Shown piece by piece: positions 15,826-33,511 of a stretch of 64,000 bases of DNA; positions within the stretch are counted from its first letter, which is position 1, and each line of letters starts with the position of its first letter. The translations under genes and the position numbers were made by a program. The DNA comes from Haloarcula limicola. Its GTDB lineage: Archaea; Halobacteriota; Halobacteria; Halobacteriales; Haloarculaceae. The stretch spans positions 186,001-250,000 of the forward strand of contig NZ_WRXM01000003.1 of NCBI RefSeq assembly GCF_010119205.1, written 5' to 3'. A model generated the notes under the pieces. That model saw nothing but the letters and a program-made list of their open reading frames with translations, did no database searches and was not told where the DNA came from.

Positions 15826-15826
15826 C

Positions 15827-16819: not shown

Positions 16820-18296
16820 AGCTTTCCTCTATCTGTGCCAACTGTTTTTTAGCGTCGGTCATCCCCGTTTCGGGAGCCTTGCTCTGGGAAACCACGTTGT
16901 GGACCTCCTGTGAGATGACCTTCGACTCCTGGAAGTAGATCGGCGTTACTGGCCGGGGGATCACGTTGTCGGCCATCACGGAGAACGTGTCCATGTACTG
17001 TCCGAATAGAGGATGGTCCGCGACTCCCTTCGTCTGCAGGAGCTTCGGTTTCGGTGGCAGAAAACCGCTCAGCTTGAACCACTTGACGAGGAAGTCGTCC
17101 GTCATGACCGTTCGAAGGACCTCGAGCGCCGCGTCCTGTTTGTTAGAGTTCGGGTTGACCGAGAGGTTGTAACCTGCCAGCGGCGACATCGTCCCGCCGA
17201 TATTCTGGTACTCCGAATCTGTCTCTCGGATTCCGTACGGTTTCGGCATCAGCCCGAGTTTCTCGCTCACCGCGTCGCCGAAATTGCTCTCCGAACTCGC
17301 GAGTTTGGCGAACGCGGGGTTGCCGACCGTGTACGCGAAGGAGTTGCCGTTGAGGAAGGCGTCGAGGTCCTTGGTATAACGCCACCCGAGTACGTCAGAG
17401 GGGACGATCCCGCCGACGAACGAGTCGTCGTCGAGCGAGTGCTGGTCGTCGTGTCCCCACATGAACGTCCTGAGCATCCGGAGCGAATCGAGGACTTGCT
17501 CCTCGTCGATGGTGATCGGTCGATCGCCGACGGGGCCGAACAGGTAATCTTGACCGCCGAAGTACGCGCCGCCCCACTGTGACATAATCGAGTTGAACGT
17601 ACAGCAGGTGACCGTCTGCGACAGTTCGAACGGCATCGTGAGCCCGTACCGGGTGCCCTGCTGTTTCTGGACGGCAGCGGCGATCTGAGAGAACTCTTTC
17701 CAAGACTTTGGTTCCGTGCCCCAGTTCTCGCCGTCAGGGTCGTACCCCGCCTCTTTCGCGAGGTCGCGGCGGTACCACATTCCGCGAACGTCCATGATGA
17801 GCGGGACGCCGAAGACGTCCCCGTTCCGGCCGCGACTCGAGTCGACGCTCTCGGCGTTGAATTCGTTCTCGAGAGTCTGGATGTGCTCATCGGAGAGCGC
17901 CTTACTGAGGTTTAGCAACTGCCCGCGTCGGATGAACGGGATCGACCAACCGACGTCCATCGTCAGGATGTCGGGACTCCCTCGGCCGGCGTTGAGCCAC
18001 TGACGGTACTGCTCTTCCAGCGTTCCAGGCGTCTTAGTGCTAAGTTCGATACTGATGTCCTCGGAGAGCCCAGCCTCGTGCAACGCTGGCTCGAACTGTT
18101 CCACGGCCTGCTTCGGTGTCCGGGAGAGCAAGTTCATCTTCAGCGTCGTCGAACCGTTCGAACCGCCACCGCTCCCGTCGCTCGCGTTCGACCCACTGCT
18201 GCCGTCACCCGAACACCCAGCGAGCGATGCTCCGACGCCTGTCGCACCAACTGCTCTGATGAATCGTCGCCTATGTACGCCGCTATTTTCGGACAT
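16806..18296 (-). CDS. Sugar ABC transporter substrate-binding lipoprotein
   Basis: Extracellular binding protein of 496 aa anchored as a Tat lipoprotein: HRRRFIRA at residues 8-15 and the lipobox SLAGC with Cys28, followed by a Ser/Gly-rich linker. The rest matches the extracellular solute-binding protein family 1 pattern. The start ATG 18296 fits a TATA box centred 29 bases upstream; an in-frame codon 15 bases further up is less likely. First gene of the transporter operon. A paralogue at 50625-52124 shares distinctive blocks such as GGAYFGG and FGPVGDRP, implying related ligands. Confidence 0.92.
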   Translation of the reverse strand: MSENSGVHRRRFIRAVGATGVGASLAGCSGDGSSGSNASDGSGGGSNGSTTLKMNLLSRTPKQAVEQFEPALHEAGLSEDISIELSTKTPGTLEEQYRQWLNAGRGSPDILTMDVGWSIPFIRRGQLLNLSKALSDEHIQTLENEFNAESVDSSRGRNGDVFGVPLIMDVRGMWYRRDLAKEAGYDPDGENWGTEPKSWKEFSQIAAAVQKQQGTRYGLTMPFELSQTVTCCTFNSIMSQWGGAYFGGQDYLFGPVGDRPITIDEEQVLDSLRMLRTFMWGHDDQHSLDDDSFVGGIVPSDVLGWRYTKDLDAFLNGNSFAYTVGNPAFAKLASSESNFGDAVSEKLGLMPKPYGIRETDSEYQNIGGTMSPLAGYNLSVNPNSNKQDAALEVLRTVMTDDFLVKWFKLSGFLPPKPKLLQTKGVADHPLFGQYMDTFSVMADNVIPRPVTPIYFQESKVISQEVHNVVSQSKAPETGMTDAKKQLAQIEESYGQQ

Positions 18297-18318
18297 GCTA
18301 CGGTGGCACATACATAGA

Positions 18319-18330: not shown

Positions 18331-18504
18331 TAGTTTTTGGTCGACGTGACTCTCGGCTGTATTCGAAGGGCGCAATCGTACATCTAGACTGTCGTCTGAG
18401 AGTCGTTACCGACAGAGAAACGGAATCAGCTCCCAGGTTCAGATCTGACTTCGGTTTCCGACGACGGATACGCTCGTCACGCCATGCGTTAGAGCATAGC
18501 GCTG

Positions 18505-18514
18505 CGAAAAAACG
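18505..18514 (-). terminator. Oligo-T terminator of the SDR gene
   Basis: Minus-strand tcgttttttcgc lies about 9 bases after the SDR stop codon. Confidence 0.45.
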
Positions 18515-18520
18515 ATAGCC

Positions 18521-19345
18521 TCAGACGCCGCTGAACGCCGAGAACCCACCGTCGACGGGAATCACCGTTCCGGTGACGAACTCGGCCCCGGGCGCGAGCA
18601 GCCAGAGGACAGTCGTCGAGAGGTCTTCCGGATCGCCGAACCTGCCCTGCGGAGTCTGGTCGATGATCGACTGGCCGCGGTCCGTGTACTCGCCGGTCTC
18701 CTCGTCGATCAGCAGATACCGGTTCTGCTCGGTGAGGAAGAATCCGGGCGCGACCGCGTTCACGCGGATGTCCGGGGAGTACTCCTGTGCCATGTGGACG
18801 GCCAACCACTCCGTGAAGTTCGAGACGGCGGCCTTTGCACCCGAATACCCGGGGATCTTGGTCAGGGGCGTGAACGCGTTCATCGACGAGACGTTCAGAA
18901 TCGCTCCCTTCCCCTGATCGGTCATATACTCGCCGAAGGCCTGCGAGGCGAGGACCGTCCCCACGAAATTGACGTTCACGACGCTTTCGAGTCCCTCCTT
19001 CGGCAGATCGAAGAAAGACGTGTCCGGTCCCGTCGTCGCGTCCGGATGGTTCCCGCCAGCGGCGTTGACGAGCACGTCGATGCGCCCGTACTCGTCGACG
19101 ACCGTCTCGGCGGCCGCGTCGAGCTCGGCCCGATCGAGCACCGACGCCGGAATAGCGATAGCGTCGATCCCCCGTTCCGCGAGTTCGGCGCGCGTCTCCT
19201 CGAGTTCCTCTTCGCCGCGGGCGAGGAGCGCGACCTTGCCGCCGTTCTCGCCGATCGCTTTCGCCATTTCGGAACCCAGGACTCCCGATCCGCCGGTTAT
19301 CACGCAGACCTTGCCGTCGATGTCGAAGTCGTTTGGGACAGTCAT
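18521..19345 (-). CDS. SDR oxidoreductase, probable D-mannonate oxidoreductase (fructuronate reductase)
   Basis: Short-chain dehydrogenase of 274 aa with the Rossmann motif TGGSGVLG (about residues 17-24), the NAAGG strand, catalytic Ser in NVSSMNAF and the YSGAK Tyr-Lys pair. Sequence features such as the long FFLTEQNRYLL loop and the DGGFSAFSGV C-terminus match SDR-type D-mannonate oxidoreductases, which replace the long-chain UxuB in some organisms. Position next to uxaC, with uxuA nearby, makes D-fructuronate to D-mannonate reduction likely. A gluconate 5-dehydrogenase-like activity is the alternative. It has its own promoter and terminator. Confidence 0.75.
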   Translation of the reverse strand: MTVPNDFDIDGKVCVITGGSGVLGSEMAKAIGENGGKVALLARGEEELEETRAELAERGIDAIAIPASVLDRAELDAAAETVVDEYGRIDVLVNAAGGNHPDATTGPDTSFFDLPKEGLESVVNVNFVGTVLASQAFGEYMTDQGKGAILNVSSMNAFTPLTKIPGYSGAKAAVSNFTEWLAVHMAQEYSPDIRVNAVAPGFFLTEQNRYLLIDEETGEYTDRGQSIIDQTPQGRFGDPEDLSTTVLWLLAPGAEFVTGTVIPVDGGFSAFSGV

Positions 19346-19375
19346 CGTGGTCTACAGTCCGAATCGTAGCGGAGA

Positions 19376-19387
19376 TGTATGTATGTT
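19376..19387 (-). promoter_or_regulatory. TATA-like element of the SDR gene
   Basis: Minus-strand aacatacataca lies about 35 bases before ATG 19345, giving a leader of about 9 bases. Confidence 0.4.
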
Positions 19388-19489
19388 CTGTGTTTCCGAC
19401 GGACGCGGACAAACGGAGACAAACCCCGGCGTGCCCGGTGCTTCGGGGCGCGGATCGCGCCGATCGCCCGGTCAGAGCACCCGCCGCCA

Positions 19490-20857
19490 CTACTCGAAGC
19501 CGTACAGCGACTTCGGCCGTTCGTAGGCCAGGTGCGTCGCGAGTTGCTCGGCATGTGTCATCGGCATCTGTCCGCGCTCGACCATCTCTCCGAGCACGTT
19601 CGAGAGGACGCGACGGAACATCTCGAACCGAGAGCTGAACGATATCAGTTTCCGCGAGTCACTCACCATCCCGGCGTGATTCGCGAGCAAGTCGACGCTG
19701 CCGACCTGTCGGAGCTGCTCGTCCATTCCGTACGGGCTGTCGTTGAACCACCACGCGGGGCCCACGCTGACGTTCCGAAACGCCCGTGATAACGTCGTAA
19801 GGGACGGATAATGTGTCGGATCGACTGTGTAGAGGACGATCTCCATCTCGTCGTCGAACGTGTTCAGGAAGTGCCGGAGGTTCTCGGTCAGCTCGACGTC
19901 TTGCGTCGAGACGTCGCCGCCCGCGTCAGCACCGACAGTTTCGTAGAGAGAGTCGCGATAGTCACGAACGGGACCGATGTGGAGCTGTGTGACCCAGTCT
20001 CTCTCGGCGTTGAGCTTCCCCACCTCTTCGAGGATGAACGCCTGTAGGTCACGGACGCCGGTTTCCGTCAGATTCTGTCCGTCGATAGCCCGTCGGTAGA
20101 GCGTTCGCGCACGCTCTCTACTGACCGGACGAGAGACCGGTTCGGTCAGGCTGAGATCGCTCGCCCGACAGCCGTGTTCGGCGAAGTGGTCGTGCGTCTG
20201 TGCCAGCGCGTCCAAGAAACCCGATAGCGTCTCCGTCTGCACGCCGGTCGCGGACGCCAGTTCCTCGACGAACTCGTTCCACGACCCATCGTCGACGTGG
20301 AACGCGCGGTCGATGCGCCACGTCGGCCGCACGTCGAGCCCGTCGATATTCTCGGCAGCGCGCTCGTGGTCCGAGAGCGAGGAGGTCGGGTCGTCCGTCG
20401 TGCAGAGGACTTCGACGTCCATCGATTCGAGTAGCTGTCGGGGATGCATGGCGCGGGTGGACAGCTGCGCCTCCGTCTCGTGCCAGATCTCCTCGGCGGT
20501 CTCCGACGAGATCGGCTTCTCGATACCGAACTGTCGCCGCAGGTCGAGATGGATCCACTCGTAAGTCGGGCTCCCGGCGAGTTCGGGGAAAATATCCGCC
20601 AGCGCCATCCACTTTTCCCTGTTCGGAGCGTCACCGGTGATCTTCCGCTCCGGGACGCCGCGCTTTCGCATCACCGACCACACGTAGTGGTCTGTCGCCC
20701 CTTCCACTTCCCAGATGTCGTCCCAGCCGTCGTTGGTCACGATTTCGGTCAGATCAGCGTGACTATGAGGGTCGACTATCGGGAGGTCTCTGATGCCGTC
20801 GTACAGTTCGGCAGCTGTCCCCGACTCGAGGAGGTAACTGTCATCAACGAAGCCCAT
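19490..20857 (-). CDS. uxaC: Glucuronate isomerase (uronate isomerase)
   Basis: Cytoplasmic amidohydrolase-superfamily isomerase of 455 aa converting D-glucuronate to D-fructuronate (and galacturonate to tagaturonate). The N-terminal metal motif DPHSHADL (H31, H33) is present. So are the family-specific blocks WALxxIFP-like (MALADIFPEL), VEVLCTTDDP, RPTWRID, LHIGPVRDYR, VGPAWWFND and the C-terminal SDSRKLISFSSRFEMFRR. The length is about normal for UxaC (about 470 aa). A TATA box 27 bases upstream fixes ATG 20857. It heads the isomerase branch of this island. Uronate isomerases are common in bacteria and much less so in archaea. Confidence 0.95.
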   Translation of the reverse strand: MGFVDDSYLLESGTAAELYDGIRDLPIVDPHSHADLTEIVTNDGWDDIWEVEGATDHYVWSVMRKRGVPERKITGDAPNREKWMALADIFPELAGSPTYEWIHLDLRRQFGIEKPISSETAEEIWHETEAQLSTRAMHPRQLLESMDVEVLCTTDDPTSSLSDHERAAENIDGLDVRPTWRIDRAFHVDDGSWNEFVEELASATGVQTETLSGFLDALAQTHDHFAEHGCRASDLSLTEPVSRPVSRERARTLYRRAIDGQNLTETGVRDLQAFILEEVGKLNAERDWVTQLHIGPVRDYRDSLYETVGADAGGDVSTQDVELTENLRHFLNTFDDEMEIVLYTVDPTHYPSLTTLSRAFRNVSVGPAWWFNDSPYGMDEQLRQVGSVDLLANHAGMVSDSRKLISFSSRFEMFRRVLSNVLGEMVERGQMPMTHAEQLATHLAYERPKSLYGFE

Positions 20858-20889: not shown

Positions 20890-21618
20890 TAACGACAGCC
20901 CGGACGACTGCATCCCCCTCGTCTACGACAGACAGATTCGCCAGCAGCGAATCAGGTGTCAGAGAAGCCCTATCGACCGCAGCCCGCGTGACACGGGCCG
21001 AGTAAACAGTTTCAACAGTACGATCTCTCGGTTACCGTTACCCGGTTCGTGGTCCAGGCTCGATAACCGAATACTGAAAATAGCCTCGTGTTCTCGAAGA
21101 GCGAATTACCGTCTCATTCGGCGGCGCCAGCGTCGAACCGAGGAGAGAATCGGACGAGGGGAGCTGTGCATGACAGGTGTACAGTAGTTATTCAGAGAAG
21201 CTATCTCTGCTCGATAGGGTGTCGAGAGGTCAGGGTCGATAGGCTACTTCGCAGAATTACAGCACTTTCAGCCCGCTGGACGGCTGTTTCTCGTTTATCG
21301 AACGAGTCGGTCGGAAGTGCGATCGGGAACGTAGCGGTGACCCATCCGACCGAACCCCGATACGAACGTCAGACCAGATGACGACGATCTCCGCCGTTAA
21401 ATAATGCAAGTACATCCGTTATTTCTTTTCGGTGCGATAGTTTACCTGGCTCGACCCGGGTTTGGCGGCCCGGACGATCGGCCGAGCGAGGCGCAAAAAT
21501 TCCGAGGAAAGTCGCTCCGTTATTTCTATCCCCAATTTTATAGCCTTTAGAAGCCATGAAACGTAAGATTCGACAGAGGAGAACAAGACCTAAGTGACTC
21601 TGTACTGTTGTGTATGCT
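20890..21618. other. Divergent intergenic region uxaC / iclR
   Basis: About 730 bases without a convincing gene. A plus-strand frame (21088-21381) has no recognisable motif. A TATA-like caattttatag lies at 21533-21543, and between it and the IclR start there is a 13-codon mini-frame beginning at ATG 21556, roughly at the predicted transcript start. The long gap may hold operators for the IclR regulator, but I see no clear palindrome. Confidence 0.4.
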
Positions 21619-22383
21619 ATGCCAACGAACACGCCGCGGAAGATAGAGGCGGTCCACAAGACCTGCCGGATCATCGATATCCTCCAGAGACGTGGCGAGG
21701 CAGGGATAACGGACATCTCCGAGGAAATGGACTTCTCGAAAAGTGCGGTGCACGGGCATCTCGCGACCCTCGAAGACGAGGGCCTCGTCGTGAAAGAGGG
21801 ACATTCGTACTATCTCAGCCTGCAGTTCGTCGACATCGCCGAGTCCGTCAAGGATCGGATCGCGAAGCGAGAGATCGTCAGAGAGCAAGTCCGCACGCTC
21901 GCAGAAGAGACCGGTGAAGTCGTTCACTTCGGCGCGGAGGAGAATGGGCGAGTGGTCTACCTCGCGAAGTCGAAAGGGGCTTCAGCGGTCGAGACCGCCT
22001 CGAAGATCGGCAAACAGATGCCGATGCATTCAACGTCGCTGGGCAAGGCGATACTGGCCGAACTGCCGCGTGATGACGCCGAACGGATCATCGAACAGCA
22101 CGAACTGACCGCGCGGACGGAGCACACACTCACCGACTCTAGTGCGCTACTGACGGAATTGAGCGATACCCACGAGCGCGGGTACTCCATCGACGACGAG
22201 GAGAATATCCCGGGCGTCCGCTGTATCGGAATGGCCGTCTCGGACCCGGAAGCGGGAGTCTTCGGTGCGCTCAGCATCTCTGGACCGTCCCAGCGGATGA
22301 CCGAGGACAGAATCGAGAACGAACTCTCCGAGGAGATCGCACAGGCCGCGAACGTCATCGAAGTCAATTCGATGTACTCGTAA
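21619..22383 (+). CDS. IclR family transcriptional regulator
   Basis: DNA-binding regulator of 254 aa. The N-terminal winged helix-turn-helix (about residues 9-75) includes GITDISEEMDFSKSAVHGHL. The C-terminal IclR effector domain (about 85-250) has the family pattern MHSTSLGKAIL and GVRCIGMAV. The start ATG 21619 is preferred over GTG 21610 because similar proteins begin shortly before the PRKIEAV helix. It lies between the isomerase branch (left, opposite strand) and oxidative branch (right, same strand) and is the natural candidate to control both, with a uronate or its catabolite as effector. The IclR protein at 48157 has the same length and similar layout. Confidence 0.9.
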   Translation: MPTNTPRKIEAVHKTCRIIDILQRRGEAGITDISEEMDFSKSAVHGHLATLEDEGLVVKEGHSYYLSLQFVDIAESVKDRIAKREIVREQVRTLAEETGEVVHFGAEENGRVVYLAKSKGASAVETASKIGKQMPMHSTSLGKAILAELPRDDAERIIEQHELTARTEHTLTDSSALLTELSDTHERGYSIDDEENIPGVRCIGMAVSDPEAGVFGALSISGPSQRMTEDRIENELSEEIAQAANVIEVNSMYS

Positions 22384-22431: not shown

Positions 22432-22442
22432 ACATTTGTAAG
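22432..22442 (+). promoter_or_regulatory. TATA-like element of the aldehyde dehydrogenase gene
   Basis: The sequence acatttgtaag is centred about 29 bases before ATG 22466 and supports that start over 22442 and 22448. Confidence 0.45.
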
Positions 22443-22465
22443 TGGGTATGGGGTATCTCTCGTTG

Positions 22466-23917
22466 ATGTCGGAGAGCTACAAGAATTACGTGCGCGGTGA
22501 GTGGGTCACCGCCGAGTCAGAAGCGACGTTCGACGTTATCGATCCTGCACAGTCCGACGAAGTCGTCGGGACGTATCAGCAGTCCAGCGAAGCGGACGCT
22601 GAAACGGCGATAGCGGCCGCAACTGCTGCGGAGGACGCGTGGGCGTCGACGCCCGGACCGGAACGGGGGACCGTGCTGAAGCAGACGAGCGACGCGCTCG
22701 CGGACCGGAAAGAGGAGGCCATCGAGACGCTGGTGCGAGAAGAGGGGAAAGCGCGGTCTGAAGCAGCGGGCGAAGTACAGCGAGCCATCGATATCTTCGC
22801 GTACTACGGGCAGAAAGCGCGGGATCTCGGTGGGCGGCACAAAGCCTCCAGTAGCCGCGACACGGACCTCTACACCAAGGTCGAGCCCCTGGGGACCGTC
22901 GGGCTCATCACGCCGTGGAACTACCCCATCGCGATTCCGGCCTGGAAACTCGCACCGGCACTCGCGGCGGGGAACGCCGCCGTCATCAAGCCGGCGACCG
23001 CCGCACCCGGGCCGACGCGGATACTCTTCGAGTGCCTCGATTCGGCCGGGCTGCCGGACGGCGTCGCAAACATGGTCACGGGCTCCGGAAGCCAAGTCGG
23101 GACGCCGCTCGTCGAACACGACGACGTCGACGGCGTCTCGTTCACCGGGAGTACCGCAGTCGGGACGGACATCGCGGAGACCGCCGCGACGGAGCGAAAG
23201 CGCGTCCAGTGTGAGATGGGCGGAAAGAACCCGACCGTCGTCATGCCGAGTGCGGACATCGACGAAGCCGCCGAGATCGTCGCTAACGGCGCGTTCGGGA
23301 CGACCGGCCAGTCCTGTACGGCCGCGTCACGAGCTATCGTCCACGAGGACGTCTACGAGTCGTTCGTCGAGAAAGTCGTCGAACACGCTGAAGCGGTGGA
23401 TGTAGGTGCCGGTCTAGACGACCCGGACATGGGTCCACACGTCTCGGAGAGCGAACTCGACTCTACGCTCGAATACGTCGACGTCGGGCGTGAGGAGGGT
23501 GCGACCCTCGAAACCGGCGGGACCAGATTGACCGATAGCGACTTCGAACACGGGTTCTACGTCTCTCCGACCGTGTTCTCCGACGTGAGCAACGACATGC
23601 GTATCGCACAGGAAGAGATTTTCGGCCCGGTGCTGTCTGTCATCGAGACCGAGGACTTTGACAACGCCGTGGAGTTAGCCAACAACACTGACTACGGACT
23701 CGCTGCGAGCATCGTGACCGATCGACTCTCCGAGGCCGACGCGTTCGTCGACCGCGTCGAGTCTGGCGTCGTCAAAGTAAACGAGAAGACGACCGGACTG
23801 GAGCTGCACGTTCCCTTCGGCGGCTACAAGGACTCCTCGACGAACACGTATCGGGAGCAGGGCGACGCCGGGCTCGACTTCTTCACCGCTACCAAGACCG
23901 TCTACCGGAACTACTGA
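22466..23917 (+). CDS. Aldehyde dehydrogenase, probable 2-oxoglutarate semialdehyde dehydrogenase
   Basis: NAD(P)-dependent aldehyde dehydrogenase of 483 aa with catalytic Cys284 in TGQSCTAASR, general base Glu250 in CEMGGKNP and cofactor-binding SFTGSTAVG. The order of neighbours (KdgD-like enzyme next, then uronate dehydrogenase and lactonase) and similarity to haloarchaeal XacF-type enzymes make 2-oxoglutarate semialdehyde the likely substrate. The product would be 2-oxoglutarate for the citric acid cycle. It follows the IclR gene by 82 bases but has its own TATA-like element. Lactaldehyde or succinate semialdehyde dehydrogenase are alternatives by fold. Confidence 0.85.
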   Translation: MSESYKNYVRGEWVTAESEATFDVIDPAQSDEVVGTYQQSSEADAETAIAAATAAEDAWASTPGPERGTVLKQTSDALADRKEEAIETLVREEGKARSEAAGEVQRAIDIFAYYGQKARDLGGRHKASSSRDTDLYTKVEPLGTVGLITPWNYPIAIPAWKLAPALAAGNAAVIKPATAAPGPTRILFECLDSAGLPDGVANMVTGSGSQVGTPLVEHDDVDGVSFTGSTAVGTDIAETAATERKRVQCEMGGKNPTVVMPSADIDEAAEIVANGAFGTTGQSCTAASRAIVHEDVYESFVEKVVEHAEAVDVGAGLDDPDMGPHVSESELDSTLEYVDVGREEGATLETGGTRLTDSDFEHGFYVSPTVFSDVSNDMRIAQEEIFGPVLSVIETEDFDNAVELANNTDYGLAASIVTDRLSEADAFVDRVESGVVKVNEKTTGLELHVPFGGYKDSSTNTYREQGDAGLDFFTATKTVYRNY

Positions 23918-24040: not shown

Positions 24041-24979
24041 ATGCCACTCGGTAGAGACGAGGTCAAAGACTGCTTGCGAGGTGTGGCGGTCGGCCTCCTG
24101 ACTCCCTTCGACGAGCAAGGTGAGATCGAACGCTGGAAGATCGAGGAGAACGCACAGGCGCACTACGAACAGGGAATCCGCACCTACCTCGCGGCCGCGA
24201 ACATCAGTGAGTATCACTCCCTCTCACAGGAAGAACGTGTCGACGTGACCGAAGCGAGTGTGAACGCGCTCCCGTCCGATGCGTGTGTACTCGCCGGCGT
24301 CGGTGGAAGCACGTCGGCGGCCCGTGATCTGATTCGGGCCTACGACCGTCTCGGCGTCGATGCGATGATGGTAATGCCCCCGGACCACACGTATCTACAC
24401 GAACGCGGGTTGCTGGACTACTATCGTAAACTGGCCGACGTGACGGAAACACCCTTGGTTCCGTACGTCCGGGGCTTCGACCCGTCTGTCGAGTATCTCG
24501 TGGAACTGTCTCGAATCGACGCTATCGCCGGCATCAAGTACGCTCTCGAAGACCCGATAAAGCTCGGCGCGGCGACGAGCAGGGGTGCTGACGACGTCGT
24601 GTGGGTTGACGGCCTAGCGGAACCCTACGCGGTCTCCTACTGGGCCGAGGGCGCAGAGGGCTTCTCCGCCGGAGTGAGCAACTTCCGACCGGAGGTCGGT
24701 CTGGAACTGTTCGAAGCCCTCTCGAACGGGAACTGGGAGCGGGCCCGAACGCTGCGAAACATCTGTTTACCCTATCAGAACTTCCGCGATCGAACCGGCC
24801 AAGACAACTCGATCGCGGGCGCTATCAGCGTCCCGGCCGTGAAGAAGGGGCTCGACCTCGCGGGGATGCACGGCGGGAGCGTGCGTGAACCGATTCGCCC
24901 GCTCTCCTCGTCGGAAGTGCAGGAAGCGACGGACATCTACAACGAACTGGACGACAATATCGCCCGGCTGATAGCCTGA
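24041..24979 (+). CDS. DHDPS/NAL family dehydratase-aldolase, KdgD-like
   Basis: Schiff-base TIM-barrel enzyme of 312 aa. The lysine that binds the keto acid is K166 in IAGIKYALED; a Tyr in VPYVRG (Y142) occupies the usual catalytic position. The C-terminal pattern around VKKGLDLAGMHGG and VREPIRPLS is reminiscent of 5-dehydro-4-deoxyglucarate dehydratase (KdgD) and of haloarchaeal 2-keto-3-deoxypentonate dehydratase (XacE). Both yield 2-oxoglutarate semialdehyde, the substrate proposed for the preceding dehydrogenase. A 2-keto-3-deoxygluconate aldolase role is a real alternative, which would instead serve the UxuA branch. Leaderless start by TATA position. Confidence 0.8.
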   Translation: MPLGRDEVKDCLRGVAVGLLTPFDEQGEIERWKIEENAQAHYEQGIRTYLAAANISEYHSLSQEERVDVTEASVNALPSDACVLAGVGGSTSAARDLIRAYDRLGVDAMMVMPPDHTYLHERGLLDYYRKLADVTETPLVPYVRGFDPSVEYLVELSRIDAIAGIKYALEDPIKLGAATSRGADDVVWVDGLAEPYAVSYWAEGAEGFSAGVSNFRPEVGLELFEALSNGNWERARTLRNICLPYQNFRDRTGQDNSIAGAISVPAVKKGLDLAGMHGGSVREPIRPLSSSEVQEATDIYNELDDNIARLIA

Positions 24980-25028: not shown

Positions 25029-26099
25029 ATGGCACGAAACGAAACGACTGACACGGACTCGCTCCCGCTGCGGAGTGGACTCAGAACGCGAACGCTCTCG
25101 GACGAACGACTCCGCTTCTGTCGACAGATCGGCGTCGAAGATATCTTCCTCGACCACCGTGACCCGCGTGGAGACGTCTTCGAAGACGAAGGTAGCGACG
25201 ACAGCGAGACGATCACCATCGACGAGGGCGTCGTCCCGTCCGTTTCCGAACTGGTACAGGCACGCCGGCGAGCAGAAGACGCAGGGCTACGGCTGATGGG
25301 GATCCAGTCGCTGAGTTACAACGTCTACGGCAAGATCATGCTCGGGAAAGACGGGCAAGAGACCCAGCTGGAGACGATAAAGGACCTCATCCGGAACGTG
25401 GGACAGGCGGATATCCCGATACTGGGGTACCAGTGGAACCCGCGGGGCGTCGTACCGATGCGTACCTCACAGACCGTCCGCCTGCGCGGCGACGCGCGAG
25501 GGAGGGGGTTCGACATCGAAGATATCGCAGACCCGTACGAGCGGGCCCCCGGCGTGGAGCGGGAGTACGAAGAGGCGGAACTCTGGGAGAACTACGAACG
25601 GTTCCTCGAAGCGGTTCTGCCCGTCGCCGAGGAGGCGGGTGTCCGGCTGGCGCTTCACCCGGCCGACCCACCGACAGTCGAACAGCTCGGCGGTATTCCC
25701 CGCCTGTTCCGTAACTTCGAGGCGTTCCAGCGAGCGATGGAGCTCGTTCCCAGTGACAATCACGGGCTCAAGCTCTGTCTCGGATGCTTCTCCGAGATGC
25801 CTGATACCGACGTCACCGAAGTGATAGAGCACTTCGGCGCCAACGACGACATCGTCTTCGTCCACTTCCGAGACGTCATCGGTACCTGGCCGAATTTCAC
25901 GGAGACGTTCGTCGACGACGACCAGAGCAACTTCGATGCGCTAGACGCTATCGAAGCGCTACAGGAAGTCGGGTTCGACGGCGTGATGGTCCCAGATCAC
26001 GTCCCGGAGATCGTCGACGACACCGAGTGGGGCCACCGCTCTCGTGCCCACGCCATCGCATATCTCAACGGTCTGCTCGCGTGCTCCCAACGGGAGTAA
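25029..26099 (+). CDS. UxuA-like TIM-barrel dehydratase, divergent paralogue
   Basis: Protein of 356 aa related to UxuA. It keeps H210 in LALHPADPP, C250 in KLCLGC and H279 in VHFRDVIG, and D323-H324 in MVPDH. In the uxuA at 10713 the last motif is MRPDH, so the Arg is replaced by Val here, and residues 35-75 carry an acidic insertion. These changes suggest a different sugar-acid substrate. It follows the KdgD-like gene by 49 bases and precedes uronate dehydrogenase, probably in an operon-like group. It may dehydrate an aldarate (glucarate or galactarate), the step otherwise missing from the oxidative route; a second mannonate dehydratase is the conservative reading. Confidence 0.7.
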   Translation: MARNETTDTDSLPLRSGLRTRTLSDERLRFCRQIGVEDIFLDHRDPRGDVFEDEGSDDSETITIDEGVVPSVSELVQARRRAEDAGLRLMGIQSLSYNVYGKIMLGKDGQETQLETIKDLIRNVGQADIPILGYQWNPRGVVPMRTSQTVRLRGDARGRGFDIEDIADPYERAPGVEREYEEAELWENYERFLEAVLPVAEEAGVRLALHPADPPTVEQLGGIPRLFRNFEAFQRAMELVPSDNHGLKLCLGCFSEMPDTDVTEVIEHFGANDDIVFVHFRDVIGTWPNFTETFVDDDQSNFDALDAIEALQEVGFDGVMVPDHVPEIVDDTEWGHRSRAHAIAYLNGLLACSQRE

Positions 26100-26180: not shown

Positions 26181-26200
26181 GCTCAGCCGAGGTGTGTTCT

Positions 26201-27064
26201 ATGAACGTGTTGGTCACCGGTGCGTACGGTCGGTGCGGAACCGCCATAATCGACCACCTGCACCAGAATCCGAACTACGATTTCACGTATCTGAACCGGT
26301 CTGACCGGCCAGACGATCACCGGTACGGTGCCTTCGAGACGTACGTAGCCGACGTATCCGACTACGACGCAATTCGGCCCGCTTTCGACGGGAAGGACGC
26401 TGTTATCCATTTGGCGGCCTATCCCTACACCGACGGAGACTGGTCGGACGTCTTCGAACCGAACGTGCTCGGAACGTACAACGTCTTAGAGGCTGCCCGA
26501 GACGCGGGGATCGAATCCTTCGTATTTGGGTCTACGAACCACGTACAGGGGCTCTACGAGGCCGAACTGGCACCCGAACTCTACGAGCAGGACCACCCGC
26601 TAGTACTCGACCATACTGACCCCGTCCGACCGGATTCGTTGTACGGTGCGACGAAATCCTTCGGGGAAGATATCGGCCGATATTACGCGGAAGCGATGGA
26701 GTGGCCACGTCGGTTCTACGCCCTACGGATCTGTACTGTCCAGTCGGCCGCGTTCGACTCTCCATACGGCCCTGCAGAGCGACGCGTCGAGAACGGGGAG
26801 ATCGCTCGGGGCGGAGCCGCGTATCAGCGATCGGTGAACCGAACGAAAGCCACGTGGCACTCCCGGCGGGATTTCGCTCATCTGATCGACTGTTGCCTGC
26901 AGGACTCCGACGTGACCTACGGGATATTCAACGGCGTCAGCGACAACGACCGCCGCTGGTTCTCCATCCAGAACGCACGCGAACGACTCGGCTATCAACC
27001 CCAGGATAACGGCGAAACGTGGGACGAACCCCCCGCGACCGAGCAGGGCGACATCGAGTCCTAA
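26201..27064 (+). CDS. udh: NAD-dependent uronate dehydrogenase (extended SDR)
   Basis: Oxidises D-glucuronate or D-galacturonate to the aldaro-lactone, the first step of oxidative uronate catabolism. The 287-aa protein has an N-terminal Rossmann motif TGAYGRCG (6-13), the uronate-contacting block GSTNHVQGLYE (S111, N113, H114) and catalytic Tyr148-Lys152 in LYGATKSFGED. The pattern CTVQ followed by TWHSRRDFAHLI matches the Udh family, where Arg residues bind the substrate carboxylate. It is slightly longer than bacterial Udh (about 265-275 aa). The next gene encodes a lactonase. Composition is a little more AT-rich than in the second island. Confidence 0.85.
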   Translation: MNVLVTGAYGRCGTAIIDHLHQNPNYDFTYLNRSDRPDDHRYGAFETYVADVSDYDAIRPAFDGKDAVIHLAAYPYTDGDWSDVFEPNVLGTYNVLEAARDAGIESFVFGSTNHVQGLYEAELAPELYEQDHPLVLDHTDPVRPDSLYGATKSFGEDIGRYYAEAMEWPRRFYALRICTVQSAAFDSPYGPAERRVENGEIARGGAAYQRSVNRTKATWHSRRDFAHLIDCCLQDSDVTYGIFNGVSDNDRRWFSIQNARERLGYQPQDNGETWDEPPATEQGDIES

Positions 27065-27110: not shown

Positions 27111-28157
27111 GTGACGGGTAGATCTCACGTGGCGGCTATCGGAACGTATAGCGCAGCAACCAGTACGGGAGTCCACACGGTCGCAGTTGATCCGGACACC
27201 GGCGCATTGACCCAACTCGACTCCGTCGTCGCCGGCCCGAACCCCACATTTGTCGCCTCGCATCCACACGATGAGTACGTCTACGCCGCAGTTCGGACTG
27301 AACCGGAGGGCCTGATCAAGGCTTTCCAAGTCGACAACGATACCGGCGAGTTATCTCTCGTGAGTAGTATCGAGAGTGGGGCGCTTAGCCCGTGCCATTG
27401 TAGCGTCGACGCGACCGGAGAGTATCTGTTCGTCGCTCATTACGAGGGTGGGTCCGTGTCGATGCTCCCGCTCGGATCCGATGGTACCGTGGCTGCACCA
27501 ACTGCGGTAGTAGAACACAGCGGCGACAGTATCGATCCCGACAGGCAAACGAGTCCACACCCGCACTCGGCTAATCCCGGGCCGGCTAACGACTACCTCT
27601 ACGTACCAGACCTCGGAACCGACCAAGTCATCGTTTACGAGATTCGTCCCGCAGAGGACGATATCACCGTACACCGAACGGTAGATGTTGCACCCGGGTC
27701 GGGTCCACGCCACCTCTCGTTCGGGCCCGATGGCGAGTACGGATATCTCATCAACGAACTCGATTCGACAGTTACTGTTTTCGAGCGAGCCCCTGATGGG
27801 GATCTGAGCGAGCAGTCGAAGATATCTACACTTCCCGCCGATTTCGAGGGCGAAAACAAGACCGCGGAGGTCGAGGTTCACCCCTCCGGTCGATACGTGT
27901 TCGCCTCGAATCGAGGCCGAGATACTATCGTGACGTTCGCCGTTGCTGGAGACGAGCTGCGTCACATCGGCGAGATACCGACCGGCGGTGCGTGGCCTCG
28001 GCACTTCAGCGTCAGTCCGACCGGCGAATTTCTCTTCGTCGAGAATAGGGACACTAACGGGATCGTCGTCTTCGATATCGACATCGAAACTGGCGAGCTG
28101 ACTCGAATCGACGAGCGATTGGCGGTCACAGAGCCGGTTTGCCTTCAGTGGGTTTAG
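27111..28157 (+). CDS. Beta-propeller lactonase (6-phosphogluconolactonase/YbhE family)
   Basis: Seven-bladed beta-propeller lactonase of 348 aa. The YbhE-family signature is present: IGTYSAATSTGVHTV at the N-terminus, the HPHSANPGP loop, YVPDLGTDQV, PRHLSFGPDG, the EVHPSGRYVFASNRG blade and WPRHFSVSPTG. Family members open sugar lactones. Directly downstream of udh it probably hydrolyses glucaro- or galactaro-lactone. GTG 27111 is used as start; GTG 27129 is an alternative. The spacing to udh (46 bases) allows cotranscription. Confidence 0.85.
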   Translation: MTGRSHVAAIGTYSAATSTGVHTVAVDPDTGALTQLDSVVAGPNPTFVASHPHDEYVYAAVRTEPEGLIKAFQVDNDTGELSLVSSIESGALSPCHCSVDATGEYLFVAHYEGGSVSMLPLGSDGTVAAPTAVVEHSGDSIDPDRQTSPHPHSANPGPANDYLYVPDLGTDQVIVYEIRPAEDDITVHRTVDVAPGSGPRHLSFGPDGEYGYLINELDSTVTVFERAPDGDLSEQSKISTLPADFEGENKTAEVEVHPSGRYVFASNRGRDTIVTFAVAGDELRHIGEIPTGGAWPRHFSVSPTGEFLFVENRDTNGIVVFDIDIETGELTRIDERLAVTEPVCLQWV

Positions 28158-28744: not shown

Positions 28745-28968
28745 CGCGCACGGGGCAAAGCGGAAACGGCGTTTCATTTCTCCTCGCACAGAGAGGGCTA
28801 TCGTACAGTTACCAAGGATCACGGAACGTCAGTTAAAATAACGAGCGTACTTTTGTCATTTCACGCGTGGTGCCGTTCGTCTCTTCCGAAAGAATAGCAC
28901 GAGAAGGGGTGGACAGCGAGGGTTCCGGACGAACCGTCGTGAGTTCGGGACCCCGGCGAAACGGCCGA

Positions 28969-28980
28969 AACTATTTGACC
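28969..28980 (+). promoter_or_regulatory. TATA box of gene 29002
   Basis: The sequence aactatttgacc is centred 28 bases before ATG 29002. Confidence 0.5.
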
Positions 28981-29001
28981 GTTGCCCGCGCGTGAACTGG
29001 T

Positions 29002-29826
29002 ATGGGTCTCGGGTATACGACCATGATGTACGACAGTTCGGAGATAGCAGCGGGCATCGGCGACGTCGCCGCGTGCCAGTACGACGGCGTCGAGATCGGC
29101 CTGGAAAAGGTTCGAGAGGCGGGTCCCGACAGGGTGGACGCGCTGGTCGACGAGTACGACCTCGACCTCTACTGCGTGATGAGCGAGTGGCTGGAGACGG
29201 AAGCCGCGGTAGACAGGGTTGCGTCCGACTTCGATATGCTCTCTGACCTCGACGTCGACAACGTCGGTCTGCTTCCGCCACAGCGCAACCGGCAGGACGA
29301 CGCGACCGTCGAGGAGTGGTTCACGCGCCTCGCCGACGCGGCGACGGACGCGGGCGTGACGCCGCTCGTCCACCACCACGGCGCGACGCACGTCGAACGG
29401 AACGACGAGGTGCGACAACTTCTCGACGCGGTGGACGGACTCGAACTCCTGTGGGACACCGCCCACTACTACCCCTACGGCGAGAACTTCCCCGAGGGTG
29501 ACGTCACCGACGGCATCGAGACGTTCGCCGATGACATCGGCTACGTCCATCTGAAGGACGTGGCCCCACCGACCGGGTTCGACGAGATGCGCGACAGTCT
29601 CTCGGCGGGCGACTTCCACCTCGACCACGTGATCAACTACTTCCGCTCCTTCACCGACCTCGGGCGCGGCAAAATCGACTTCGAGGCGGTCAGTGAGACG
29701 CTGGAGGACGTGGGCTACGACGGCGACATCACCATCGAGATCGAGAACCGGACGGAGAAACCGCTCGTCCACGCCAAGGAGAACTACGACTACTGGCGGG
29801 ACATCCGGCCCAAGGAAGACCGGTAA
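29002..29826 (+). CDS. Sugar isomerase/epimerase TIM-barrel enzyme, IolE-like (paralogue 1)
   Basis: Xylose isomerase-like/AP-endonuclease-2-fold enzyme of 274 aa. Likely metal and catalytic residues are in VHHHGATH (H124-H126), LWDTAHYYPYG (D152, H155), YVHLKD (H183) and TIEIEN (E246). The family includes 2-keto-myo-inositol dehydratase (IolE), hydroxypyruvate isomerase and D-tagatose 3-epimerase; the GxDxxxxQYDGVEIG-type start and the WDTAH block recall IolE. A clear paralogue lies at 32674-33474 on the opposite strand; both start MGLGYTT. An IolG-like dehydrogenase follows downstream. The exact reaction is open. Confidence 0.75.
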   Translation: MGLGYTTMMYDSSEIAAGIGDVAACQYDGVEIGLEKVREAGPDRVDALVDEYDLDLYCVMSEWLETEAAVDRVASDFDMLSDLDVDNVGLLPPQRNRQDDATVEEWFTRLADAATDAGVTPLVHHHGATHVERNDEVRQLLDAVDGLELLWDTAHYYPYGENFPEGDVTDGIETFADDIGYVHLKDVAPPTGFDEMRDSLSAGDFHLDHVINYFRSFTDLGRGKIDFEAVSETLEDVGYDGDITIEIENRTEKPLVHAKENYDYWRDIRPKEDR

Positions 29827-30017
29827 ACCACCATTCCGACGAGGCGTTCGCATCTCCCGAACGGATCTGAGCTCAATACCGTCTCGGCGGTCGCGTCGTT
29901 TCCGTCGCGGTGCAGGGTAGTTACGTGACTGTCGTTTCAACGGTGAGAGCGGTTATCCCGCTGAGCATCCGCGGCGGCCGAGACGCCTCGTCAACTGGTA
30001 GTCGGCGACCACCAGAA

Positions 30018-30027
30018 GCTATAACAG
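30018..30027 (+). promoter_or_regulatory. TATA box of gene 30050
   Basis: The sequence gctataacag is centred 28 bases before ATG 30050, so GTG 30047 is not needed as start. Confidence 0.5.
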
Positions 30028-30049
30028 GCATTGCAAGAAAGTTCGGGTG

Positions 30050-31132
30050 ATGCGATTCGGAATCATCGGCTGTGGCCTCGTCGCACAAGTCATGCATATC
30101 CCCTACCTCGCGGAGCTCCCCGAGGCGGAGCTACACGCCTTCGCCGACCCCGCGGAGGGGCGGGCAGAGACACTCGCGGATCGATACAACGTCCCGCACG
30201 TCTACGCGGGACACGAGGACCTCCTCGCCGAAGTGGGCGACGACCTCGACGCCGTGGTCGTCCTCACGCCGTCGCACACGCACGCCGACGTCGCCGTCGA
30301 CACGTTGGACGCCGGCGTCAACACGCTCGTCGAGAAACCGATCGCGACGAGCCTCGAAGACGCCGACCGAATGGTCGAAGCGGCCGAGGAAAGCGACGCG
30401 ACGGCGATGGTCGCGTACATGAAGCGGTACGACCCCTCCTACGAACGCGCACAGGAGGTCGTCGCCGACCTTGAGGAGATCGACCTCGTCACCGCCTACG
30501 ACGTGGACCCCGACCACTTCCGCATCGTCAAGGAGGTCTACGACCTCGTCGAGGGGATGCCGCCGGAGGACCTGATCGAGGAGAGCGTCGCCGAGCGGCG
30601 AAGCGACATGGAAGCCGCCATCGGGACGGACGACGAGATGCTCCTCGACGCCTACGACTTCCAGTTAGAGCACGTCTGCCACGACGTGAACGCTCTCCGA
30701 GGGCTGTTCGGGGCCGTAAAGAGTATCGACCACGTCAACATCTTCGCCGAAGGCCGGTACGCGACCGCCCACCTCACCTACGAGGACGGCGTGGAGTGCG
30801 TCCTCGAAACGGGTGACTCCGACCGCAAGTGGTTCGAGGAGTTCGTCCGCGTCGACTCGCCCGACGGGATGGTGAAAGTCGACTTCTCGAATCCCTTTAT
30901 CAAGAACACGCCGACCGAGCTGCGGGTCAAGCGGGGCCTCGAAGACCTGACCGACTCGGTGGAGACGCCGTCCTACGAGGAGCCGTTCAAGCGCGAACTC
31001 TCGTACTTCGTCGACTGCGTCGACGGGGAGCGCGACGTTCGGACGACGTTCGCCGAGGCGCGCGAGGACCTGCAGGTCATCGTCGACCTGTTCCGGACGT
31101 ACCGCGGCGAGAGCCCTCGCTCGGCGGACTGA
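30050..31132 (+). CDS. Gfo/Idh/MocA family oxidoreductase (inositol 2-dehydrogenase-like)
   Basis: NAD(P)-dependent sugar or cyclitol dehydrogenase of 360 aa. The Rossmann motif FGIIGCGLVAQ (3-13) is followed by the family EKP motif in LVEKPIAT (95-97) and a C-terminal mixed alpha/beta substrate domain. The usual catalytic HD pair appears as HVCHDVNALRG. It lies between two IolE-like genes, so a keto-cyclitol or keto-sugar product handed to them is plausible. The family is functionally broad (glucose-fructose oxidoreductase, inositol dehydrogenase, scyllo-inositol dehydrogenase), so the substrate is not settled. Convergent with the enolase-type gene. Confidence 0.82.
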   Translation: MRFGIIGCGLVAQVMHIPYLAELPEAELHAFADPAEGRAETLADRYNVPHVYAGHEDLLAEVGDDLDAVVVLTPSHTHADVAVDTLDAGVNTLVEKPIATSLEDADRMVEAAEESDATAMVAYMKRYDPSYERAQEVVADLEEIDLVTAYDVDPDHFRIVKEVYDLVEGMPPEDLIEESVAERRSDMEAAIGTDDEMLLDAYDFQLEHVCHDVNALRGLFGAVKSIDHVNIFAEGRYATAHLTYEDGVECVLETGDSDRKWFEEFVRVDSPDGMVKVDFSNPFIKNTPTELRVKRGLEDLTDSVETPSYEEPFKRELSYFVDCVDGERDVRTTFAEAREDLQVIVDLFRTYRGESPRSAD

Positions 31133-31156
31133 CTCGTCGCGTCTGCACTTCCCCTC

Positions 31157-31166
31157 GAAAAAACGG
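31157..31166 (-). terminator. Oligo-T terminator of the enolase-superfamily gene
   Basis: Minus-strand cccgttttttcg lies about 12 bases after the stop at 31175. Confidence 0.45.
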
Positions 31167-31174
31167 GCTCGACG

Positions 31175-32410
31175 CTATTCCTTGCGGTGCGCTTCGACGG
31201 CGTCCCAGTCGAGTTCGATACCCAGCCCGGGCGCGTCGGGAACCCGAATGCGGCCGTTCTGGATGAAGTCCTCCTCGCGGGCGAGCAGGTCTTCCCACCA
31301 TGGCACCTCGCGGGCGTGGTACTCCAGGGCGACGAAGTTCGGCACCGTCGCCCCGACGTGGGCCGTCGCGGCGGTCGCGACCGGGCTCCCGATGTTGTGT
31401 GGGACGAGCGCCTGATAGTACGCTTCGGCCATCTCGGCGACCTTCTTCGTCTCGGCGATGCCGCCCGTCTTGGGCACGTCCGGCGCGAGGAAGTCGACCG
31501 CCTGGTCCTCGATGAGGTCGCGGAAGCCGTGGCGGCCGTAGCGGTTCTCGCCGGTCAGAATGGTCGCGTCGACGCGGCGCTTCAGCTCCCGCATCGCGTC
31601 GGTGTTCTCCGGCGGCAGGGGGTCCTCGATCCACGCGAGGTCGTACGGTTCGAGCGCCCGGCAGAGGCGCTCTGCGGTCTCGGGACTGAAGTTCCAGTGG
31701 AGGTCCACGGCCACCTCAGCGTCGTGACCGATCTCCTCGGTGACGGCCTCGACGACGCGCTTCTTGTGGTCGATCTCGGGCGGGTCGAAGTGCCGCGAGA
31801 GCGTGTCGACCTCGCGGCCCGAGGGCACGTCGAGGTCGAACTTCACGATATCGAAGCCGTCCCCGACGGCCGCGCGTGCGGCTTTCGCGTAGGCTTCTGG
31901 TTCGTACGTCGAGTCCTCCTGTCCCTCCTCGGCCGATTCGACCATCGCCTCGCCGGCGTGACAGTCGGCGTAGACGGCGACCTCCTCGCGGGTCTTCCCG
32001 CCCAGCAGTTGATACACCGGCTGGTCCAGCAGTTTCCCGGCGGCGTCCCACAGGGCGATCTCGACGCCGCTGATGGCGATGGTGCCGACGCCCTCCTGCG
32101 AGCCCCGACCCGAGAGGCTCCCGCGCATGAGGTTGTACAGCCGTTCGACGTCGGTCGGGTTCTCGCCGACTAAGACTGGCCGGAGATAGTCGGTGATGAT
32201 CTCGTGGACGCCCGGCGAGGGGTAGGCCTCGCCGATGCCGGTGACGCCCTCGTCGGTCTCGACGGTGACGATCGTCCACGGGAAGTTCCCGTCGACGACG
32301 ATCGTATTCAGGTCGGTTATCTCTGCCGCGGGGCCGTCCGCCCGGCGAGGCATCTCGTCGAAGTCGGCCCACATCGTCGCTGCGAGTTTTGAAGCGAAGT
32401 CCTCGTACAT
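31175..32410 (-). CDS. Enolase superfamily acid-sugar dehydratase (mandelate racemase subgroup)
   Basis: Mg2+-dependent dehydratase or racemase of 411 aa. Metal ligands are visible as D236 (VDLHWNF), E262 (WIEDP) and E288 (LTGEN). The His/Asp dyad of the mandelate racemase subgroup is H338 (VPHNIGSP) with D311 (LAPDVPKTGG). K190 sits in the VKFD motif, where the second Lys of the KxK motif is Asp, as in several aldonate dehydratases. A gluconate, galactonate or other aldonate dehydratase is most likely; glucarate dehydratase, which needs KxK, is less so. ATG 32410 is chosen because the frame upstream is Arg-rich and unlike coding sequence. Neighbouring aldolase and sugar dehydrogenases fit a non-phosphorylative route. 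Confidence 0.82.
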   Translation of the reverse strand: MYEDFASKLAATMWADFDEMPRRADGPAAEITDLNTIVVDGNFPWTIVTVETDEGVTGIGEAYPSPGVHEIITDYLRPVLVGENPTDVERLYNLMRGSLSGRGSQEGVGTIAISGVEIALWDAAGKLLDQPVYQLLGGKTREEVAVYADCHAGEAMVESAEEGQEDSTYEPEAYAKAARAAVGDGFDIVKFDLDVPSGREVDTLSRHFDPPEIDHKKRVVEAVTEEIGHDAEVAVDLHWNFSPETAERLCRALEPYDLAWIEDPLPPENTDAMRELKRRVDATILTGENRYGRHGFRDLIEDQAVDFLAPDVPKTGGIAETKKVAEMAEAYYQALVPHNIGSPVATAATAHVGATVPNFVALEYHAREVPWWEDLLAREEDFIQNGRIRVPDAPGLGIELDWDAVEAHRKE

Positions 32411-32673
32411 GATTCGTATCCTGTGTTCAGTGGCACCGGCCCCGGTCCCGCGTCGGAGCGGGACGCGCCGGTGTACCGCGCTTTCTCGGCAACTCGGCAA
32501 GGGCGGGGTAGGGATGGCACGTATCGCCGCATCGACCCCAGTCCGTGCCGAATCGCATCGTCCGTCATATCCACGCTCGGTCAGTTATAAGTTCCGATGG
32601 ATCGGGCGTTCTACGCCCGCGTTAGCGTGGGAACCGACGGTCGCGACTCCGGTGATCTCCGTCCGGTCGGGCA

Positions 32674-33474
32674 TCATTCCGTCGCGTTTCGATGGGAGTC
32701 GATGTTTTGTTTCGCGTGGACGAGCGGGCGCTCTCGCCGGTTCTCGATCTCGATGGTCTGGTGGCCGTCGTAGCCGGCGTCCGCGAGCGCCTCGTCGATG
32801 GCTTCGAAGTCGAGTTCGCCCTCGCCCAAGTCCCTGAACGCCCAGATGAAATTGATGATGCTGTCGAAGTCGACCTTCCCCGCCGTGAGGTTCTCGACGT
32901 GCGTCTCGAAGCCTGCCGGGGATGCGATGTCCTTGAGGTGGACGTATGCGATATCGTCGGCGTACCGTTCGATGCCCTCGACGACGTCGCCGTAGGGATG
33001 GTAGTGAGCCGTATCGAACAGGAGTTCGACGTTATCGGGCGTTCGGTCCAGCCACTCGCGTATCTCGTCCGGCTGCTCGATGTGCGCGCCGCCGTGGTGG
33101 TGGAGAACGACGGTGATGCCCGCGTCTTCGGCGGCCGCGGCGATGTCGTGGAGCCACGTCTCGAAGTCGTCGTCGGAGACCTGTCCGCGAGGCGGCGGCA
33201 GGATGCCGAGGAAGTCCGCCCCGAGGTCGGCGGCGAGCGCCGCCCCGTCGATGGCGTCCTCCGCGTCGTCCTCCGTCAACAACCAGCCGGCCATCACGCA
33301 GTAGAGGTCGAGGTCGTACTCGTCGAGGAGACCAGCTATCCTGTTGGGTCCGGCCTCTCGGAGCTTCCCGAGGCCAATTTCGAGCCCGTCGTATCGGCAG
33401 GCGGCGACGTCGCCGATACCGGTCTCGATCACTTCACTGGGATCGTACATGATCGTCGTGTAACCGAGTCCCAT
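32674..33474 (-). CDS. Sugar isomerase/epimerase TIM-barrel enzyme, IolE-like (paralogue 2)
   Basis: Enzyme of 266 aa paralogous to 29002-29826: both begin MGLGYTT and share EIGL, DEYDLDLYCVM, HHHG, DTAHY, YVHLKD and TIEIENR. Likely ligand residues are H125-H127, D154, H157 and H179. It lacks the NFPEGD insertion of paralogue 1 after HYHPYG. The two copies flank the IolG-like and enolase-type genes, so they may act on successive or stereochemically different intermediates. Leaderless by TATA position. The substrate is unknown. Confidence 0.75.
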   Translation of the reverse strand: MGLGYTTIMYDPSEVIETGIGDVAACRYDGLEIGLGKLREAGPNRIAGLLDEYDLDLYCVMAGWLLTEDDAEDAIDGAALAADLGADFLGILPPPRGQVSDDDFETWLHDIAAAAEDAGITVVLHHHGGAHIEQPDEIREWLDRTPDNVELLFDTAHYHPYGDVVEGIERYADDIAYVHLKDIASPAGFETHVENLTAGKVDFDSIINFIWAFRDLGEGELDFEAIDEALADAGYDGHQTIEIENRRERPLVHAKQNIDSHRNATE

Positions 33475-33500
33475 GACCGTTGATAATGAAATGCGTCGAC

Positions 33501-33511
33501 ATTAATCTTTC
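33501..33511 (-). promoter_or_regulatory. TATA-like element of gene 33474
   Basis: Minus-strand aaagattaatg is centred about 32 bases before ATG 33474. Confidence 0.45.

Follow-up and report, generated by a model that had tools for sequence, protein, structure and literature searches.

Which enzyme dehydrates the aldarate in a haloarchaeal operon that seems otherwise equipped to oxidize glucuronate? The question is raised by a glucuronate island in the window (the whole stretch of 64,000 nucleotides of Haloarcula limicola DNA that was analyzed, 186001-250000 of contig C3 of genome G000). On its forward strand, with gaps of 47 to 124 bp, lie a series of presumably co-transcribed genes in the order IclR-KGSADH-KdgD-UXL-Udh-lactonase: an IclR-family regulator at the operon head, recognized by a family profile match (21610-22383); a 2,5-dioxovalerate (alpha-ketoglutarate semialdehyde, KGSA) dehydrogenase (22442-23917; NF052305, 823.5 bits, cut-off 750); a KdgD-like 5-keto-4-deoxyglucarate dehydratase of the DHDPS/KdgD family (24041-24979); the gene under study, here called UXL (25029-26099); a uronate dehydrogenase-like SDR (Udh; 26192-27064); and a beta-propeller lactonase (PF10282), a candidate glucarolactonase (27111-28157). 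The isomerase branch is represented by the glucuronate isomerase gene uxaC (19490-20857, reverse strand; NF002794, 494 bits, cut-off 387). The island also contains, on the reverse strand, an SDR oxidoreductase whose position suggests a possible fructuronate reductase (18521-19345), a CUT1-like ABC importer with an ATPase, two permeases and a solute-binding protein (13707-18311) and a GH2 enzyme most similar to beta-glucuronidase (11775-13565; 251 bits, cut-off 544), and, on the forward strand, an ordinary uxuA that served as the comparison gene (10533-11672). Judged by its gene content, the island appears to combine the isomerase route with an oxidative route that is complete save for the aldarate dehydratase, and the hallmark of an oxidative hexuronate pathway, Udh beside KdgD and KGSA dehydrogenase, is found in the window operon as well as in the orthologous loci. 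No convincing operator common to the island promoters was found. Two long ORFs on the reverse strand that match no family, 18489-19490 and 28861-29940, overlap the SDR gene at 18521-19345 and an IolE-like gene at 29002-29826, respectively, and are most likely spurious in this GC-rich genome.

The identities of the genes flanking UXL define the step to be filled. The best PDB matches of the SDR were 6mfh, 3ay3 and 3rft (E values of 7.5e-25 to 5e-20), which represent uronate dehydrogenases and a close homologue. Its assignment as a haloarchaeal glucose-6-phosphate dehydrogenase was rejected, with NF041293 at 202 against 400 bits and no NLTxxH motif, a feature of the SDR-type enzyme of haloarchaea (PMC8506132). 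For the DHDPS-family protein, the best NCBIfam matches were the KdgD models, although the scores were below the curated KdgD cut-offs. KdgD is distinguished by a Tyr in an FYNR stretch, with a later Ser and VFNF, and KdaD by a catalytic Glu two residues past the Lys, plus further Glu residues (PMC13398020); read against these residues, the operon protein, with VPYVRG, IKYALED and FSAGVSNF, is KdgD-like and lacks the KdaD Glu.

Known aldarate dehydratases were then sought. The preliminary description had reported that the oxidative gene set lacks an enolase-superfamily dehydratase; the window does contain an enolase-superfamily gene, which is not GudD-like and occupies 31175-32500 in a separate cluster on the reverse strand. 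This gene was rejected as the missing dehydratase on account of its strand and cluster, and the other UXL-A loci examined (defined below) have only distant homologues of it. The region 29002-38294 of the window forms a second sugar-acid cluster, with two IolE-like proteins, a Gfo/Idh/MocA oxidoreductase, an enolase-superfamily protein and an ABC importer. A GudD or GarD gene elsewhere in the genome, named in advance as a finding that would count against UXL if the gene were inducible and essential for growth on uronates, did not appear above its cut-off: for GudD (TIGR03247, cut-off 828.7) the best score was 46.7 in the genome search and 58 for the gene at 31175-32500, and for GarD (TIGR03248, cut-off 731) it was 129. 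The talarate/galactarate dehydratase model NF047820 reached 234 of the 500 bits needed, the control genomes likewise all remaining below the cut-off, and an orthologue of the galactarolactone cycloisomerase Gci was absent from the window genome. The genome does carry about 15 MR_MLE-type and three UxaA/GarD-type genes, two of the former being galactonate dehydratases above the cut-off, and one of these unlinked enzymes could serve the pathway in trans.

UXL itself begins with ATG and encodes 356 amino acids; the reading frame is real and lies, as originally described, between the KdgD-like and Udh-like genes. The protein passed the Pfam UxuA model PF03786 (167.2 bits, cut-off 23.7) and failed the NCBIfam mannonate dehydratase models TIGR00695 (98.1 vs 199.6) and PRK03906 (139.1 vs 191); UxuA/AP_endonuc_2 were the only family models matched, and it contains no enolase-superfamily or UxaA/GarD sequence. 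The best PDB folds for its AF2 model (pLDDT 87.8, pTM 0.88) were the solved UxuA mannonate dehydratases 3ban, 1tz9 and 4eac, with TM scores of 0.75-0.84 (normalized to query or target length in the case of the S. suis and E. faecalis chains, and to query length in that of the E. coli chain), and the next-best fold, at about 0.6 by query length, was far below the UxuA structures. Relatives at 82-93% identity in many genera keep all of the catalytic motifs, and UXL is therefore a conserved gene. UXL is thus a member of the UxuA fold family and, on the features tested, lies outside the isofunctional mannonate dehydratase group.

Orthologues of UXL, sought in 194 genomes of the class, a plasmid collection and 84,980 species genomes, were 82-93% identical, and 12 distinct loci of clade A (UXL-A) with a UXL of at least 82% identity, the window included, formed the linkage sample. 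UXL adjoins Udh in all 12 loci and has KdgD immediately upstream in 11; in 10 loci Udh is directly followed by the lactonase, once as fragments. The named genera with UXL-A are Haloarcula, Halomicroarcula, Halomicrobium, Haloterrigena, Natrinema and Halorubrum, with the nearest named relatives by this gene in Haloarcula and Halomicroarcula. In a tree of 51 proteins, the UXL-type sequences were separated from ordinary UxuA with full support, a split that carries a long-branch warning, and they fell into clades A, B and D, a Natrialba-type offshoot A' (about 70% identity) and a less compact clade C.

The more distant cousins are mostly accompanied by KGSADH and are without Udh. At four loci (L057, L064, L069 and L072), clade B proteins (about 57%) share their neighborhood with a TRAP transporter, KGSA dehydrogenase and KdgD (71-75%); at L065 the neighbors are KdgD and the dehydrogenase, and at L068 KdgD. 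The Natrialba A' members have a TRAP DctP protein and a paralogue of KdgD nearby (L158, L159 and L062). A cluster with an acid importer, a dehydratase, KdgD and KGSADH would answer the needs of an aldarate-using cell without Udh. Across clades A, A', B and D, KdgD is nearby in 15 of 27 loci, compared with 0 of 17 for clade C, its outliers and ordinary UxuA (p 8e-5, calculated over loci that are related to each other). A second gene of the UXL subfamily in the window genome (L080:8945-10006, forward strand; G000:C3, about 13945-15006) belongs to clade C, is about 50% identical and has an SDR and another uxuA in its vicinity. Members of this clade tend to be located with uxaC, an SDR or KGSADH, KdgD being present in none of the loci seen, and their function is probably different.

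The active site retains the metal center of the family and departs from it elsewhere. The residues aligned with the metal ligands of UxuA are kept as H210 (in HPADPP), C250 (LCLGC), H279 (VHFRD) and D323 and H324 (PDH), in agreement with the earlier statement that the HPxDPP, Cys and VHFRD motifs remain. The equivalent residues bind the metal in the S. suis structure, so that these are the predicted metal ligands of UXL, and the roles of the other UxuA residues are likewise presumed from alignment. By alignment, the RPDH of UxuA, which is kept in the uxuA of the same island, is replaced in UXL by VPDH (codons 321-324; 25989-26000, forward strand), which includes the metal-site residues D323 and H324. 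The change from Arg had been described for this gene; V321 was confirmed by alignment, but Val or Ile takes the place of Arg in clades A-D, so that the change is subfamily-wide, with clade C included. A further change, overlooked earlier, is W334 in place of the Tyr of the NPGY loop; this Tyr would correspond to Tyr325 in S. suis ManD, provided that a 20-residue tag is present in the deposited chain. In addition, the His of ETxH has become V295 and the Asn/Ser of C-x-G-N/S has become C253. According to the alignment, all four changes are shared by clades A, B and D and, with few exceptions, by clade C. The Arg of RPDH and the Tyr of NPGY were both retained in each of the 14 UxuA sequences compared, and both are lost in UXL. 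As clade C shares the Val/Ile and Trp changes without a KdgD nearby, they are no proof of an aldarate substrate, and the Arg-to-Val change was rejected as such.

The acidic insertion noted previously near residues 40-70 is indeed present after beta-1 (codons 43-70 by alignment; 25155-25238, forward strand), although it is common to clades A, B and D rather than specific to this gene. It was discarded as functional evidence, because it occurs in several clades, is disordered in the model (residues 46-58 at pLDDT below 50) and is of an acidity that is ordinary in haloarchaeal proteins. Clade A differs from clade B in the alignment by Arg at positions 44, 47, 157 and 159 and Lys at 102; of these, the clade-A-specific R44 and R47 lie in the insertion, and their location after beta-1, on the catalytic face of the TIM barrel, makes them a plausible putative site for a second carboxylate.

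Other haloarchaeal genomes possess the same Udh (64-67%) and KdgD (69-74%) without a clade-A UXL beside them. In 11 such loci (L114-L121 and L124-L126), an enolase-superfamily gene of about 377 codons accompanies Udh, mostly with a KdgD homologue as well. The best PDB match of its product is 4ggb/4hpn (6e-76), deposited as an uncharacterized protein, which we take to be Gci of Agrobacterium. In bacteria, Gci turns the lactone into the KdgD substrate in a direct reaction (PMC6353982). Among the 20 genomes whose Udh reaches at least 63% identity, 17 have the Gci-like gene. The three exceptions are the window genome and Halorubrum saccharovorum (G097), both with UXL, and G152, which has neither gene. 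The genome of H. saccharovorum yielded five enolase-superfamily matches, none Gci-like: two look like a sugar-acid dehydratase type that is also found in the window genome, two look MenC/epimerase-like and one is weak. UXL and the Gci-like gene are not strict substitutes, since one genome (G073) has both in a single cluster, and two others (G062 and G181) have a separate operon of each type. The lactonase lies right after Udh in 10 of 12 UXL-A loci but in none of the 11 Gci-type loci (Fisher p 7e-5), and uxaC or GH2 is nearby in 9 of 12 and 0 of 11, respectively (Fisher p 3e-4); both tests overstate independence, as the loci are related. A division of labour in which UXL acts on free glucarate after the lactonase and Gci acts on the lactone suits this pattern.

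Several other arrangements were observed around these genes. At L064:5427-5990 (G144), the Gci-like gene is reduced to two fragments near a clade B UXL, a TRAP protein and KdgD, and it is possible that one dehydratase was lost there after the gain of another. In a Haloferax-like genome (L113:11304-12365, forward strand), Udh adjoins KdgD, followed by a GDSL-type hydrolase, which could be an unrecognized aldarolactonase, a permease-like ORF and KGSADH; the Gci-like gene is elsewhere on this contig, near a second KdgD. A second, divergent enolase-superfamily protein of about 420 amino acids is found repeatedly next to the Gci-type operon (L114:6802-8082 and L117:3726-4970, both forward); it carries ALSSPI close to the N-terminus and matched no NCBIfam family above its cut-off. 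Finally, at L133 and L134 (about 5600-11700), a split protein of the UxaA/GarD type (40% identical to that of the window genome) adjoins KdgD (74-75%), and by sequence this type appears to be a third dehydratase partner for haloarchaeal KdgD.

Stereochemistry offers a possible reason, on chemical grounds, why a UxuA-type enzyme could serve this step. D-mannonate, the substrate of UxuA, has the Fischer pattern L-L-R-R from C2. Read from C6, D-glucarate is L-L-R-L and matches C2-C4 of D-mannonate, which comprise the two carbons at which H and OH are lost and the carbon that follows, whereas galactarate (L-R-R-L) is mismatched at the reacting centers. Elimination at the C6 end of D-glucarate gives 5-keto-4-deoxy-D-glucarate, which is the substrate of KdgD. 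In the pathway that we propose, Udh would convert glucuronate to glucarolactone, and the beta-propeller lactonase would open it to D-glucarate. Glucarate would be bound by UXL from the C6 end, with C5-C4-C3 in the configuration of C2-C3-C4 of D-mannonate and the far carboxylate perhaps held by the clade-A-only residues R44, R47, K102, R157 and R159; the enzyme would abstract the proton at C5 and eliminate the hydroxyl at C4, forming 5-keto-4-deoxy-D-glucarate. KdgD would then yield alpha-ketoglutarate semialdehyde, and the dehydrogenase alpha-ketoglutarate.

Taken together, the linkage to Udh, the enolase-superfamily gene in the same slot of the sister operons, the lack of a GudD or GarD above its cut-off in the genome, the cousins with TRAP, KdgD and KGSADH and the stereochemistry favor the original proposal that UXL is the missing aldarate dehydratase. 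UXL probably combines the UxuA fold with a metal-dependent D-glucarate dehydratase activity, which would be new to PF03786. The proposal had left the aldarate open between glucarate and galactarate; D-glucarate is the one expected. With somewhat less confidence, we also favor the view that the UxuA family includes a whole branch of aldarate dehydratases, made up of clades A, A', B and D and independent of GudD and UxaA/GarD, in which glucarate binds in reverse, its C6 end occupying the position that C1 has in mannonate.

It is unlikely that UXL is an aldarate dehydratase acting mainly on galactarate, another hexarate or the lactone itself. Udh enzymes accept galacturonate as well as glucuronate (PMC6353982), KdgD uses the product of either aldarate, and the clade B clusters are without glucuronate genes. 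Nevertheless, the configuration of galactarate at the reacting centers is wrong for a UxuA-type elimination, uxaC, uxuA and the GH2 glucuronidase-like gene occur in the UXL-A loci, and a free aldarate is expected where a lactonase is present; galactarate was rejected as the main substrate on the stereochemistry and the neighboring genes.

An improbable alternative assigns UXL to the isomerase branch as a second, divergent mannonate dehydratase, explains its place in the oxidative operon by the use of glucuronate in both branches and has another dehydratase serve Udh in trans. The fold, the metal ligands, the proximity of uxaC and uxuA and the annotation of its relatives as mannonate dehydratases fit this explanation, as do the unlinked MR_MLE-type and UxaA/GarD-type genes in the genome. 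Against it, an ordinary uxuA already exists in the island and in most UXL-A genomes, UXL is under the mannonate dehydratase cut-offs and lacks the Arg and Tyr common to the UxuA sequences compared, and its cousins sit with TRAP and KdgD; moreover, every UXL-A locus is linked to Udh/KdgD, including the three without a nearby uxuA (L023, L059 and L060). A pentose oxidation operon, with the SDR as arabinose dehydrogenase, the DHDPS-family protein as 2-keto-3-deoxypentonate dehydratase and UXL as pentonate dehydratase, is very improbable and was rejected, for although the same KGSA dehydrogenase ends both pathways and an SDR, a lactonase and a DHDPS-family dehydratase are usable in both (PMC13398020), the SDR matches uronate dehydrogenases, the DHDPS-family protein has the Tyr/Ser/NF motifs of KdgD and not the KdaD Glu, the neighbors are uronate genes and the operons with KdgD orthologues also hold a galactarolactone cycloisomerase-like gene, which indicates action on aldarates rather than pentonates.

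As a D-glucarate dehydratase, UXL would differ from the known systems in distinct ways. It shares with the UxuA mannonate dehydratases the TIM barrel, the His-Cys-His-Asp/His ligands, HPxDPP and HFRD, and departs from them in RPDH (Arg to Val), NPGY (Tyr to Trp), ETxH (His to Val), the N-terminal insertion and its linkage to Udh and KdgD, UxuA being linked only to the isomerase route. The known bacterial aldarate dehydratases are of the GudD and GarD types. GudD, an enzyme of the enolase superfamily, catalyzes the reaction proposed here for UXL, from D-glucarate to 5-keto-4-deoxy-D-glucarate, with an unrelated fold. Gci, from the same superfamily (4ggb) and likewise unrelated in fold, occurs with the same types of Udh and KdgD in the sister operons and would feed KdgD the same intermediate, but it acts directly on the lactone. 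With the oxidative Udh-UxuL route by which Proteobacteria use hexuronates (Bouvier et al. 2018, according to PMC6353982 and PMC13264449), the UXL operon would share Udh, a lactonase giving free aldarate, a dehydration and KdgD/KGSA dehydrogenase. At the aldarate step, the haloarchaeal operon has a UxuA-fold protein in place of the GudD/GarD types. A comparison of haloarchaeal genomes reads the family as the mannonate dehydratase of the isomerase pathway (PMC3102087). No paper assigning an aldarate dehydratase function to the UxuA family was found in a search with thin coverage of subscription journals, which is weak evidence.

If our reading is true, UXL would fill the sole missing step of an archaeal oxidative glucuronate pathway, and PF03786 would gain a second function, making a set of haloarchaeal 'mannonate dehydratase' annotations wrong. 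Two unrelated folds, that of UxuA and that of the enolase superfamily, would then occupy the same slot in related operons, and there would be a simple stereochemical reason for the recruitment of a mannonate enzyme.
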